The position numbers were made by a program, and so were the translations under genes. 64,000 nucleotides of DNA from Chlorobiota bacterium (GTDB lineage Bacteria > Bacteroidota > Bacteroidia > Bacteroidales > F082), in assembly GCA_030596395.1 (NCBI GenBank), contig JAUVKF010000005.1, positions 1-64,000 of the forward strand. The letters are read 5' to 3'. This document shows, piece after piece, positions 11,508-64,000 of this stretch. Every line of letters begins with the position of its first letter. The first letter of the stretch is position 1. The notes below the pieces were generated by a model. That model did not search any database. It saw nothing but the letters and a program-made list of their open reading frames with translations, and was not told the DNA's origin.

Positions 11508-11525
11508 TTAATATTTCAGGATTAA

Positions 11526-11685
11526 GAGACTGTTTGGATTTTGTTTTTAGAATTTATTATGATGTATTTTTTGTCAGATCGAGGCATTTTTGAGACGCAT
11601 AGCCATAGCTACGGGTCGAAATAATAACGATGAGATGGCTAAAAAGACACATAAGAAAACTGAAAGATTAATTCCAAACAGTCTC
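11526..11685. mobile_element. MITE-like inverted-repeat element with 3-bp TAA target duplication
   Basis: A 160-bp segment bounded by perfect 13-bp terminal inverted repeats, GAGACTGTTTGGA (11526-11538) and TCCAAACAGTCTC (11673-11685). It is flanked on both sides by TAA (11523-11525 and 11686-11688), fitting a 3-bp TNA target duplication of the kind made by several IS5-group transposases. The inside has no usable gene; it shows partly self-complementary blocks around GCATAGCCATAGCTACG. It is too short for a transposase, so it must be moved in trans. Confidence 0.75.
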
Positions 11686-11726
11686 TAATAATGAAAATAA
11701 AACAAACCAATTTAAGTTATCATTGC

Positions 11727-60532: not shown

Positions 60533-60708
60533 TAATTGTATATCCTGATAGGAGATTACCTTCTGGCTCCAACAAATCCCTCATTCTTTAAAATACCCTG
60601 AAGTAACTGATAAACATGTATAACTGGTGTGTGGCGAACAAGTTATCAACATTATGTATTTATATTCGATATAAATAGTATGCCAAATAGTTAGTTGACA
60701 ATGTATTA

Positions 60709-60718
60709 CCCCCCCCCC
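60709..60718. repeat. Homopolymeric C10 tract
   Basis: Ten consecutive C in otherwise AT-rich DNA, about 160 bp before the first FG-GAP gene. Such tracts can change length by slippage. Confidence 0.8.
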
Positions 60719-60881
60719 TGTAAATTTTTACATCCGATAAAAGCATTTGACAAAACTCCTTTATTGTAGTATCTTTATAACAACCAAAGCAGAGCTGGGA
60801 ATAAATGCAATTTTGATTAACCATATCTGCTTAGTTTGAAAAGTTGCTGTAAATTACATAAAAAATGTAAACAATATATCT

Positions 60882-62345
60882 TTGAATAAAGCAATCCTCC
60901 TATTAGCATGTGTATTTCTTCTGTCCTTTTCTACCGGGGATAACAGGAGCGAATATAATGTACCATTAATGGCGTGGAGTGTTACTGCCGGTGATATTGA
61001 TCTGGATGGTGACAATGATATTGTTGTTGGACATAAAACTGCGTGGCAACATACTAACCCAACGATTACATTATTAAAAAATATTAACAACGGAATATTT
61101 GAAATAATTGATACATCCATTATATTTTGTGGTTATCAGGAAAATATTTTAACTACCAATGTAAATCTTGATGATTATCCTGATATTATTTCATTTATGT
61201 CAGATTTTTCTTCAGGGAACGCTGAAAGATATATAAGAATATTTTATAATTATAATGGGGAATTTAGCTTGTTTCATGATTTTTTACTTAATAGTAATGC
61301 AACATTTTCAGATATTAATTTCGGAGATATTAACGGCGATTATTTTAACGATATTATTGTTGCTTCTAATAACGGCCGGTTCTGGGGTGCTATCTATAAT
61401 GACGGTACAGGTAATTTCTCAAATCCCCAATATAATCAAGTAAATTATAATCCAAACGGTTTGGTATGCAACGATCTAAATAATGATGGCAGGGATGATA
61501 TTGTTGTTTGCGGCCTTAAAACGAAAATTTATTTTAGTTATCCTGATGGTTTTCAGGAGATTGAACTTGAAACCGAAGATTTTTTTATTCGTGTTTTTAT
61601 TGTTGACTTTGATCTTGACGGATTAAAGGATATTATTGCTTTTGATGATATTCTCGGAGCTTTTACCCTTATCGCCAGATTCAAAAATATCGGAAACAAT
61701 TCTTTTGAACGGTTACCGGATATAGTAAAACAGCCTGGGTCCCACGTGTATTTTATAACTGATTTTAATAATGATACATTACCTGACATCCTGCTACAAT
61801 TGGCTAATTTCTCAGGGTATAAAATTTATTATAATAAAGGAAATTTCCAATTGGGTGATTCTTTGTTTGTACCTGTTCCTTTTTATGGGGAAGGGTGGCG
61901 CAATTGCTATTGCGCAGATATGGACGGCAACGGCTATCAGGACATAATTACCACACGCGCTTTAAATGCCCCCCTGCCCGCTAATGTCAATATCATGTTT
62001 AATGATGGAAACGGAAATTTTGTGGAGGACCCGCTTACTTTAATATATCAGTACTCATCAACAATCAATTATCATTTCTCATGTTACCCTAATCCTTTCC
62101 AAACGGAAACAACATTTGAGTTCAAAACAGAAAAAAATGAAATGGCAGAACTTTACATATACAACCTTCAGGGAAGGTTAATCACATGTTTAACAAAAAG
62201 TGTAAAGAAAGTAGGTCAAATTAATTATTTAAAATGGGACGGGCTTGATACAGGTGGTAAACCATGCAAGCCCGGTAGCTACATAGCATCTCTTAAGGTA
62301 GGTGAAAAGCTTGTCCAAAACATTAAACTCATTAAATCACAATAA
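60882..62345 (+). CDS. FG-GAP/VCBS-repeat type IX cargo protein, paralogue 1
   Basis: A 487-residue exported protein beginning with TTG (MNKAILLLACVFLLSFSTG); the start is fixed by its alignment with paralogues 2 and 3, whose ATG is at the same position. Calcium-binding FG-GAP/VCBS motifs recur, for example DIDLDGDNDIVVGH, DINGDYFNDIIVAS, DLNNDGRDDIVVCG, DFDLDGLKDIIAFDD and DMDGNGYQDIIT, indicating a beta-propeller. The final 90 residues (FSCYPNPFQTETTFEF to LIKSQ) are a type A sorting domain, sending it through the type IX system to the surface. Ligand unknown. Confidence 0.88.
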   Translation: MNKAILLLACVFLLSFSTGDNRSEYNVPLMAWSVTAGDIDLDGDNDIVVGHKTAWQHTNPTITLLKNINNGIFEIIDTSIIFCGYQENILTTNVNLDDYPDIISFMSDFSSGNAERYIRIFYNYNGEFSLFHDFLLNSNATFSDINFGDINGDYFNDIIVASNNGRFWGAIYNDGTGNFSNPQYNQVNYNPNGLVCNDLNNDGRDDIVVCGLKTKIYFSYPDGFQEIELETEDFFIRVFIVDFDLDGLKDIIAFDDILGAFTLIARFKNIGNNSFERLPDIVKQPGSHVYFITDFNNDTLPDILLQLANFSGYKIYYNKGNFQLGDSLFVPVPFYGEGWRNCYCADMDGNGYQDIITTRALNAPLPANVNIMFNDGNGNFVEDPLTLIYQYSSTINYHFSCYPNPFQTETTFEFKTEKNEMAELYIYNLQGRLITCLTKSVKKVGQINYLKWDGLDTGGKPCKPGSYIASLKVGEKLVQNIKLIKSQ

Positions 62346-62349
62346 ACAT

Positions 62350-63798
62350 ATGAAAAAAACACTTATTATAATCACATGCTTAATTCTTCTGTCCTTTTCT
62401 ACCGGGGATTACAGGAGTGAATATAATGTACCATTATTGGCATGGAGTGTTACTGCCGGTGATATTGATCTGGATGGTGACAATGATATTGTTGTGGGGC
62501 ATAATTATAGTACTAAAACGCATTGGAGTGGGGTTTCCATCTTGCTCAATGATAACAATGGCTATTTTGAGTTATATGATTCGATTTATCTTTATGCGGG
62601 CCAGTCTAATGTTTTATTGGAAAACCTTAATATATTACCAAATAAAGAGATTATCGCTAATTATATAGATTCTTTATCCGGAATAAAATTCTTGGCTATA
62701 ATAAATGATTTTGATCCGACAGATATTATATACTTTACGGTCAATACTGAGGAAGCTATAAATTATAAAACTACGGGTGATATAAATGGTGACGGAGAGC
62801 CGGACATCGTTATTGCCTCAAACAAAGGCCAGTACTGGGGTGTTCTTTATAATGACGGAACAGGTAATTTTTCAAATCCGCAGTATAATCAGGTAAGTTT
62901 TGATCCCAATGACGTGGCAGTAAACGACCTGAATAACGATGGCAGGGATGATATTGTAGTATGTGGGCAGAAGACCGAAATATTTTTTAGCTATCCTGAT
63001 GGCTTTCAGGAGATGGATATTGAAAGCGAATATTTTTTTATTAAAGTTTATATTGTCGATTTTAATGAGGACGGTTTAAAGGACATTATTGGATTTGATG
63101 ATATTTTTGGTACATATACCCAGATAACAATTTTCAAGAATATAGATGGGACTAATTTTGAGAGGCTTCCATATGAATTAAAGCAACCGGGTGCCCATGT
63201 GTATTTTATCACGGATTTTAATAATGATACACTACCAGACATTTTACTTCAGTTGGCTAATTTCTCAGGGTATAAAATTTATTATAATAAAGGAAATTTC
63301 CAACTGGGCGACTCATTGTTTGTACCTATACCTTTTTATGGTGAAGGGTGGCGCAATTGCTATTGCGCAGATATGGACGGCAACGGCTATCAGGATATAA
63401 TTACCATACGGGCTTCAAATGCACAATTGCCGGCTAATTTGGATATCAGGTTCAACAATGGTGAAGGAGATTTTGTTGAAAACCCATTATCCTCAATAGA
63501 AAATTACAGTTCACCAATTGACAAAACATTTTCATGTTATCCGAACCCTTTCCAGAATAGGACAACATTTGAGTTCAAAACAGAAAAAAATGAAATGGCA
63601 GAACTTTACATATACAACCTTCAGGGAAGGTTAATCACATGTTTAACAAAAAGTGTAAAGAAAGGAGGTCAAATTAATTATTTAAAATGGGACGGGCTTG
63701 ATACAGGCGGTAAACCATGCAAGCCCGGCCCGTATTTAGCTTACCTGAAGGTAAACGGTAAAATCAAGAAAACCGTAAAACTTATAATAACAAAATAA
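62350..63798 (+). CDS. FG-GAP/VCBS-repeat type IX cargo protein, paralogue 2
   Basis: A 482-residue close paralogue of the preceding gene, using the ATG at 62350 (MKKTLIIITCLILLSFSTG) 4 nt after its stop. The signal region, first calcium motif and C-terminal third are nearly identical to paralogue 1 even at the DNA level, while residues about 40-140 differ strongly. Metal motifs include DIDLDGDNDIVVGH, DINGDGEPDIVIAS, DLNNDGRDDIVVCG and DMDGNGYQDIIT. It ends with a type A sorting domain (FSCYPNPFQNRTTFEF to LIITK). Tandem placement implies one transcript. Confidence 0.88.
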   Translation: MKKTLIIITCLILLSFSTGDYRSEYNVPLLAWSVTAGDIDLDGDNDIVVGHNYSTKTHWSGVSILLNDNNGYFELYDSIYLYAGQSNVLLENLNILPNKEIIANYIDSLSGIKFLAIINDFDPTDIIYFTVNTEEAINYKTTGDINGDGEPDIVIASNKGQYWGVLYNDGTGNFSNPQYNQVSFDPNDVAVNDLNNDGRDDIVVCGQKTEIFFSYPDGFQEMDIESEYFFIKVYIVDFNEDGLKDIIGFDDIFGTYTQITIFKNIDGTNFERLPYELKQPGAHVYFITDFNNDTLPDILLQLANFSGYKIYYNKGNFQLGDSLFVPIPFYGEGWRNCYCADMDGNGYQDIITIRASNAQLPANLDIRFNNGEGDFVENPLSSIENYSSPIDKTFSCYPNPFQNRTTFEFKTEKNEMAELYIYNLQGRLITCLTKSVKKGGQINYLKWDGLDTGGKPCKPGPYLAYLKVNGKIKKTVKLIITK

Positions 63799-63800
63799 GC

Positions 63801-64000
63801 ATGAAAAAAACACTCATAATAATTACCGGCTTACTCCTTCTTGCCTTTACAACTGCCAGTATAAGAAGCATGTATAAAGTGCCCCGCGAAGCTGCATCGG
63901 TTTGTGCTGCTGATATTGACATGGATGGGGATAATGACTTATTTATTGGACATTTGTTTAATTCGCAAACTAATTGGACAGGAATATCCATTCTAATTAA
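63801..64000 (+). CDS. FG-GAP/VCBS-repeat protein, paralogue 3 (cut by window edge)
   Basis: The ATG at 63801, 2 nt after the previous stop, opens a frame of 66 complete codons to the window end: signal peptide MKKTLIIITGLLLLAFTTA, then YKVPREAASVCAADIDMDGDNDLFIGH, the same first calcium motif as the other two. It is more diverged from paralogues 1 and 2 than they are from each other. The array may continue beyond the window. Confidence 0.85.
   Translation, partial: MKKTLIIITGLLLLAFTTASIRSMYKVPREAASVCAADIDMDGDNDLFIGHLFNSQTNWTGISILI

Follow-up and report, generated by a model that had tools for sequence, protein, structure and literature searches.

The gene array at the end of the window appears to encode T9SS-exported, integrin-alpha-like FG-GAP propeller proteins that evolve by recombination of modules and whose expression is probably subject to phase variation at a poly-C tract, a reading to which we assign a probability of roughly 0.6. 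The window, the 64-kb stretch of DNA analyzed here, is the start of an 82-kb contig (C96) of an environmental Bacteroidales MAG (G000; 3.4 Mb in 113 contigs, 94% complete, 0.8% contaminated). In the mechanism that we propose, genes p1, p2, and p3 form a promoter-driven tandem array inserted between sucA and sucB; recombination moves two kinds of module over otherwise conserved backbones, namely the C-terminal sorting tail and a block that starts midway through blade 1 and ends in the opening strands of blade 3; slippage of the C-tract would tune or switch array transcription, as it does at Bordetella fim promoters; and promoterless copies could act as donors. The local expansion noticed by a first-pass annotation of the window grew to seven copies at four loci once the whole genome was searched: p1 to p3 on C96, q1 and q2 in tandem on C13, r on C24, and s on C81. 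Comparison with other genomes (one per species) found members in two of the five other genomes of the genus, with two and three copies, and in 7 of 173 genomes of the taxonomic family, indicating that this is a patchy, accessory gene family. Genome-wide counts given throughout derive from pattern and similarity searches.

The three paralogues lie head to tail on the forward strand, as the first-pass annotation had described, with p1 at positions 60882 to 62345, p2 at 62350 to 63798, and p3 from 63801, leaving gaps of 4 nt (p1/p2) and 2 nt (p2/p3). The initial 200 nt of p3 fall within the window (63801 to 64000), and the extension of the contig suggested together with the copy count completed the gene at contig position 65219. 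All three are full-length ORFs of 472 to 487 residues comprising a signal peptide, FG-GAP repeats, and a type-A T9SS sorting tail, located at 62085 to 62342 in p1 (TIGR04183, 36.6 bits with a cutoff of 23) and at 63538 to 63795 in p2 (36.1 bits). The stepwise comparison of p1 and p2, also suggested at that stage, revealed that DNA identity is not uniform along the gene: it was 96% in an 80-nt stretch at the 5' end (86% when the first 166 nt are taken together), dropped to 50% in the 285 nt that follow, stood at 74% in the next 387 nt, and came to 86% across the 538 nt of the last third, with 91% in the C-terminal 197 nt. The strong divergence between similar ends reported for this pair is therefore borne out by the 50% stretch; as for the ends themselves, "almost identical" describes the 5' end well but overstates the last third.

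The predicted proteins scored above the Pfam cutoffs for FG-GAP models (PF13517, 61 to 92 bits versus 26.9; PF01839, 27 to 60 bits versus 22.1), and all seven copies exceeded the TIGR04183 cutoff (23.8 to 37.1 bits; q2 only just), so that both the repeats and the type IX cargo status originally proposed were confirmed by HMM. The T9SS translocon SprA is encoded in the genome (TIGR04189, 2560 bits; found in none of 14 control genomes). From these features we infer that the propeller proteins are displayed on the cell surface, where they would bind a ligand, a glycan, or other cells. An AlphaFold2 model built with 17 homologues (mean pLDDT of 80.9) consists of a seven-bladed propeller and an Ig-like tail, and the closest solved structures were integrin alpha propellers (Z of ~30, rmsd of ~3.0 Å over ~328 residues, 14 to 15% identity), the predicted fold being a seven-bladed propeller of the integrin alpha type. 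A viral origin was also considered and rejected: the best BFVD matches were generic propeller-like proteins, with no sign of such an origin.

Comparison of all copies set apart a block of ~110 residues (alignment codons 54 to ~165) from the backbone, and the seven copies can be described as interchangeable modules, with backbones A, B, R, and S and block classes a to d. One pair of backbones carries swapped blocks on two contigs, since p1 is A-a and p3 is B-b on C96, and q1 is A-b and q2 is B-a on C13. In the core, amino acid identity reached 94% between p1 and q1 (backbone A) and 97% between p3 and q2 (backbone B), and the blocks paired the other way, p1 with q2 at 55% (class a) and p3 with q1 at 62% (class b), against 23 to 31% between classes. 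Among the 409 informative sites of this quartet, 332 supported the backbone grouping, 68 the swapped grouping, and 9 the grouping by locus; the swapped sites were nearly all found in a single stretch, codons 54 to 163 (permutation P ≤ 5e-5), so the mosaic cannot be put down to chance. Block and core trees rejected each other (AU P values of 1.7e-69 and 6e-7). On the forward strand, the quartet test and identity profiles place the class a block of p1 at 61035 to 61358, its 3' edge lying between 61358 and 61409, and block b of p3 begins at 63954. In p2, which has backbone A, the block (62503 to 62811) is nearest to class c at 36 to 40% amino acid identity, a weak assignment.

The same shuffling is seen in other copies and other genomes. 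Block a is found on backbone R in G005 (contig C7; 64% to p1), block c on backbone R in both r and G002 (contig C300), block d on backbone S, and block b on a third backbone in a Chlorobiota-labeled MAG (51 to 55%). A pair from UBA5537 shares a 100% identical N terminus and block, then a core at 77 to 92%, then 100% identity again, followed by unrelated tails, indicating that tails and cores also move. A bounded block is thus exchanged between paralogues, the property by which cassette systems are recognized, and the alignments demonstrate that these adhesin-like T9SS paralogues have a history of recombination within the gene. The evidence for it is strong, but to call it gene conversion between p1 and p2, as first suggested, is too narrow, given that the exchange involved at least two loci of this genome, has parallels in relatives, and included the C-terminal tails. 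Internally deleted, decaying FG-GAP copies were also observed in G005, at L057:6632-7510 (C18) and L054:10964-11644 (C7) (block b, and a remnant). In the predicted fold, the block (p2 residues 52 to ~158) takes in the outer half of blade 1, all of blade 2, and the strands that open blade 3, with a DxDxDGxxD calcium-loop motif shortly before each of its edges. By comparison with integrins, this block may be what sets binding specificity.

The exchanged blocks are not young. With dS of about 1.1 to 1.4 and dN/dS of 0.18 (p3/q1) and 0.43 (p1/q2), the matched blocks are, judging from their substitutions, old alleles under net purifying selection. Flanks and cores gave dS values of 0.07 (p3/q2), 0.39 (p1/q1), and 1.03 (p1/p2). 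Three accounts fit these values: block exchange may not be recent, the donors may be absent from the assembly or unsampled, or the flanks may have been homogenized more recently, and at different times, around blocks that were already old. Positive selection as the source of the divergent middle was rejected on average by the dN/dS of the matched blocks, although between-class distances are saturated, and the idea of selection for variation in one propeller region, put forward on first inspection, was not supported. The age and constraint of the blocks argue against selection for novelty and in favor of an old set of alternatives that has been kept and re-sorted.

The proposed switch element lies upstream of p1, where a conserved AT-rich box (60644 to 60708, forward strand, as are the elements that follow; ...TATGTATTTATATTCGATATAAATAGTATGCCAAATAGTTAGTTGACAATGTATTA) precedes a C10 homopolymer (60709 to 60718), the sole C or G run of at least 7 within the window. 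Across ~200 nt, this region is 76% identical to the sequence preceding s on C81, and a similar sequence is found upstream of a sortilin/BNR gene on the same contig. The tract is followed at a distance of 27 nt by the −33 box of a predicted Bacteroidota-type promoter (60746 to 60777; TTTG-N20-TATCTTTA, −33/−7) that matches the consensus and is kept on C96, C24, and C81 (two genes). Downstream there is a conserved leader (60783 to 60832) with an AAGCAGA...TCTGCTT inverted repeat that could form a hairpin; the fold z-score of only −1.17 makes this RNA structure a potential one, and no Rfam element was found in the leader (only nuoG at an E value of 4.9). The leader core occurs five times in the genome, before p1, q1, r, s, and the sortilin/BNR T9SS protein gene on C81, all of them T9SS propeller genes. 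A different core promoter sequence occurs seven times in G005 and G002, before FG-GAP genes or remnants and one BNR-like T9SS protein gene, and is absent from three congeners lacking the FG-GAP family. Promoter and leader motifs are confined to genomes that have the family, before T9SS-tailed propeller genes or their remnants.

The C10 tract that had been remarked upon next to the array belongs to this conserved promoter element: a C-tract stands at a fixed place, 27 to 36 nt upstream of the −33 box, in 10 of 11 related promoters in three species of the genus, the exception being the promoter on contig C74 of G002. Its length differs between loci, from C6 to C16. Just four sites in the 3.4-Mb genome have runs of at least nine C's, and two of them are these promoters. 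In Bordetella pertussis, the gain or loss of a single C in the fim3 promoter tract switches transcription (PMC10172299), and by analogy poly-C phase variation of the p1-p3 promoter is probable and a switching role like that in fim3 likely, with a difference in tract position. The tract is located upstream of the −33 box rather than between the activator site or −35 and the −10, as in the Bordetella Pfim, so a transcriptional effect is not assured. The same poly-C promoter was also seen in G005 before a BNR-like T9SS gene (C52, L102; C16) and before another FG-GAP T9SS gene (C32, L103; C10), indicating that the regulon is wider than the FG-GAP family. A G9 run inside a regulator-propeller-like ORF on C95 of the source genome (near 24127, L073:1501; frame WIGGGYYLN) is a candidate tract for translational phase variation.

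The strongest competing explanation is ordinary paralogue evolution, in which old duplicates underwent occasional gene conversion that homogenized their flanks, the C-tract is incidental, and the products are constitutive adhesins or matrix proteins that do not switch. The age of the blocks (dS of >1), the purifying selection acting on them, and the variable homogenization of the flanks are all compatible with it. However, it leaves unexplained why a C-tract has been kept at nearly all of these promoters across three species in spite of the rarity of long C runs, and we consider it unlikely, if still a serious contender. Under the preferred reading of module recombination with probable poly-C phase variation, switching in the present day is something we infer, and ongoing phase or antigenic variation is plausible.

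Gene order supports the insertion of the array. In four congeners, sucB starts about 10 to 160 nt after sucA, and in the source genome 4.9 kb with FG-GAP genes separates the two, a comparison that shows p1-p2-p3 to be an insertion between them. At seven loci in the taxonomic family, an FG-GAP gene is followed by a large gene related to one that has a Peptidase_C13 (legumain-like) domain and a T9SS tail (G000:C13, G002:C300, G005:C7, G005:C8, G005:C18, G022, and G027). On C13, the peptidase, which carries a T9SS tail, is encoded at L010:4491-7763; further loci are L053, L054, L055, L057, L047, and L048. No solved homologue of the C13 peptidase was found by sequence. The tail of p3 is 69% identical to that of the peptidase on contig C13, and the terminator downstream of p3 matches the one after that peptidase gene, so p3 looks like the deletion scar of a lost peptidase neighbor, and the C96 array probably once had an adjacent peptidase gene. 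Other scars include a peptidase fused to an FG-GAP N terminus (G005:C8) and mini-ORFs made of a signal peptide plus a tail ahead of the genes on G002:C74 and G005:C18; together they indicate that arrays grow and shrink. Directly upstream of s, we also observed a WG-repeat-like tandem protein (L012:295-1209 on C81) with internal DNA repeats of ~68%.

This association raises the possibility that the C13 peptidase cooperates with the FG-GAP proteins or processes them, making the arrays a propeller-protease secretion module in which variation is secondary. The seven loci with a peptidase gene behind an FG-GAP gene, and the peptidase-like tail and matching terminator of p3, speak for it; yet no peptidase adjoins r, s, or the present C96 array. 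We regard this explanation as rather doubtful, although it is compatible with the preferred one. Finally, an artifact of short-read assembly behind the block swap between C96 and C13 is very improbable: the source genome is a MAG, C13 is an 11-kb contig with a repeat (IS) at its end, and p1 and p2 share an exact stretch of up to 103 nt in the tail, where misassembly is possible, but at the junctions the exact matches between backbones A and B span just 7 to 14 nt, far below any assembly k-mer, making a k-mer chimera unlikely; the matched blocks have diverged too far to have been simply transposed in silico; and independent assemblies carry other combinations of backbone and block.

The sister array on C13 could provide donors for module recombination. 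About 140 nt ahead of q1 lies the end of a repeat, 100% identical at six other places and read here as the end of an IS, which replaces the −33 box and everything upstream of it; r and s keep their promoters. Being cut off from its promoter, the C13 array may be silent and usable as a donor, although the IS itself might drive transcription. The leader of q1 holds a 162-nt MITE-like element, an inverted repeat that occurs about twenty times in the genome, and another copy of it (~162 nt; AGAGACTGTTTGGA...TCCAAACAGTCTCT) is present in the window at 11522 to 11690. A more elaborate two-layer system, in which poly-C slippage upstream of a promoter shared by the regulon would select the T9SS propeller arrays to be expressed, and the exchange of blocks between expressed and promoterless arrays would re-specify the ligand-binding blades of an integrin-like propeller, is a speculative extension that we consider improbable.

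Several features recall known systems. As in Bordetella pertussis fim2/fim3, a C-tract of similar length is found in the promoter region of surface-protein genes (PMC10172299); here, however, the tract stands outside the core promoter, 27 to 36 nt upstream of the −33 box, and both the phylum and the type of protein are unrelated. In the vlhA family of Mycoplasma gallisepticum, full-length genes for surface proteins also lie in tandem, and a simple repeat of variable length precedes the promoter (PMC4534519), but each vlhA gene has its own promoter and the repeat is a trinucleotide, whereas here each array has a single promoter and the repeated unit is a single C, and the protein families are unrelated. 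The exchange of a bounded variable block between paralogues on conserved flanks is shared with vlsE, pilE/pilS, and Anaplasma msp2 (PMC4534519). Unlike in those systems, the copies described here are few, full-length ORFs with signal peptide and tail, their blocks are old, and there is no proven expression site or dedicated silent library. The resemblance to integrin alpha and FG-GAP propellers (PF13517 and PF01839) extends in the model to the seven blades, the DxDxDG loops, and the structural Z score, at the low identity given above and with the differences that these proteins are bacterial and that a T9SS type-A tail follows the propeller.

Phase variation in Bacteroidota is known mainly from invertible DNA. 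Full-text searches of the literature library used here returned no description of T9SS FG-GAP propellers with phase variation or gene conversion, nor of a poly-C promoter combined with block swapping, and it is plausible that we are dealing with a surface-diversity system of a known type in a phylum and a protein fold for which no description was found. If true, a conserved poly-C promoter element dedicated to T9SS propeller proteins, combined with block swapping inside an integrin-like fold, would give uncultured relatives within the Bacteroidota a second way of diversifying their surface, and would indicate where in the propeller binding specificity probably resides.
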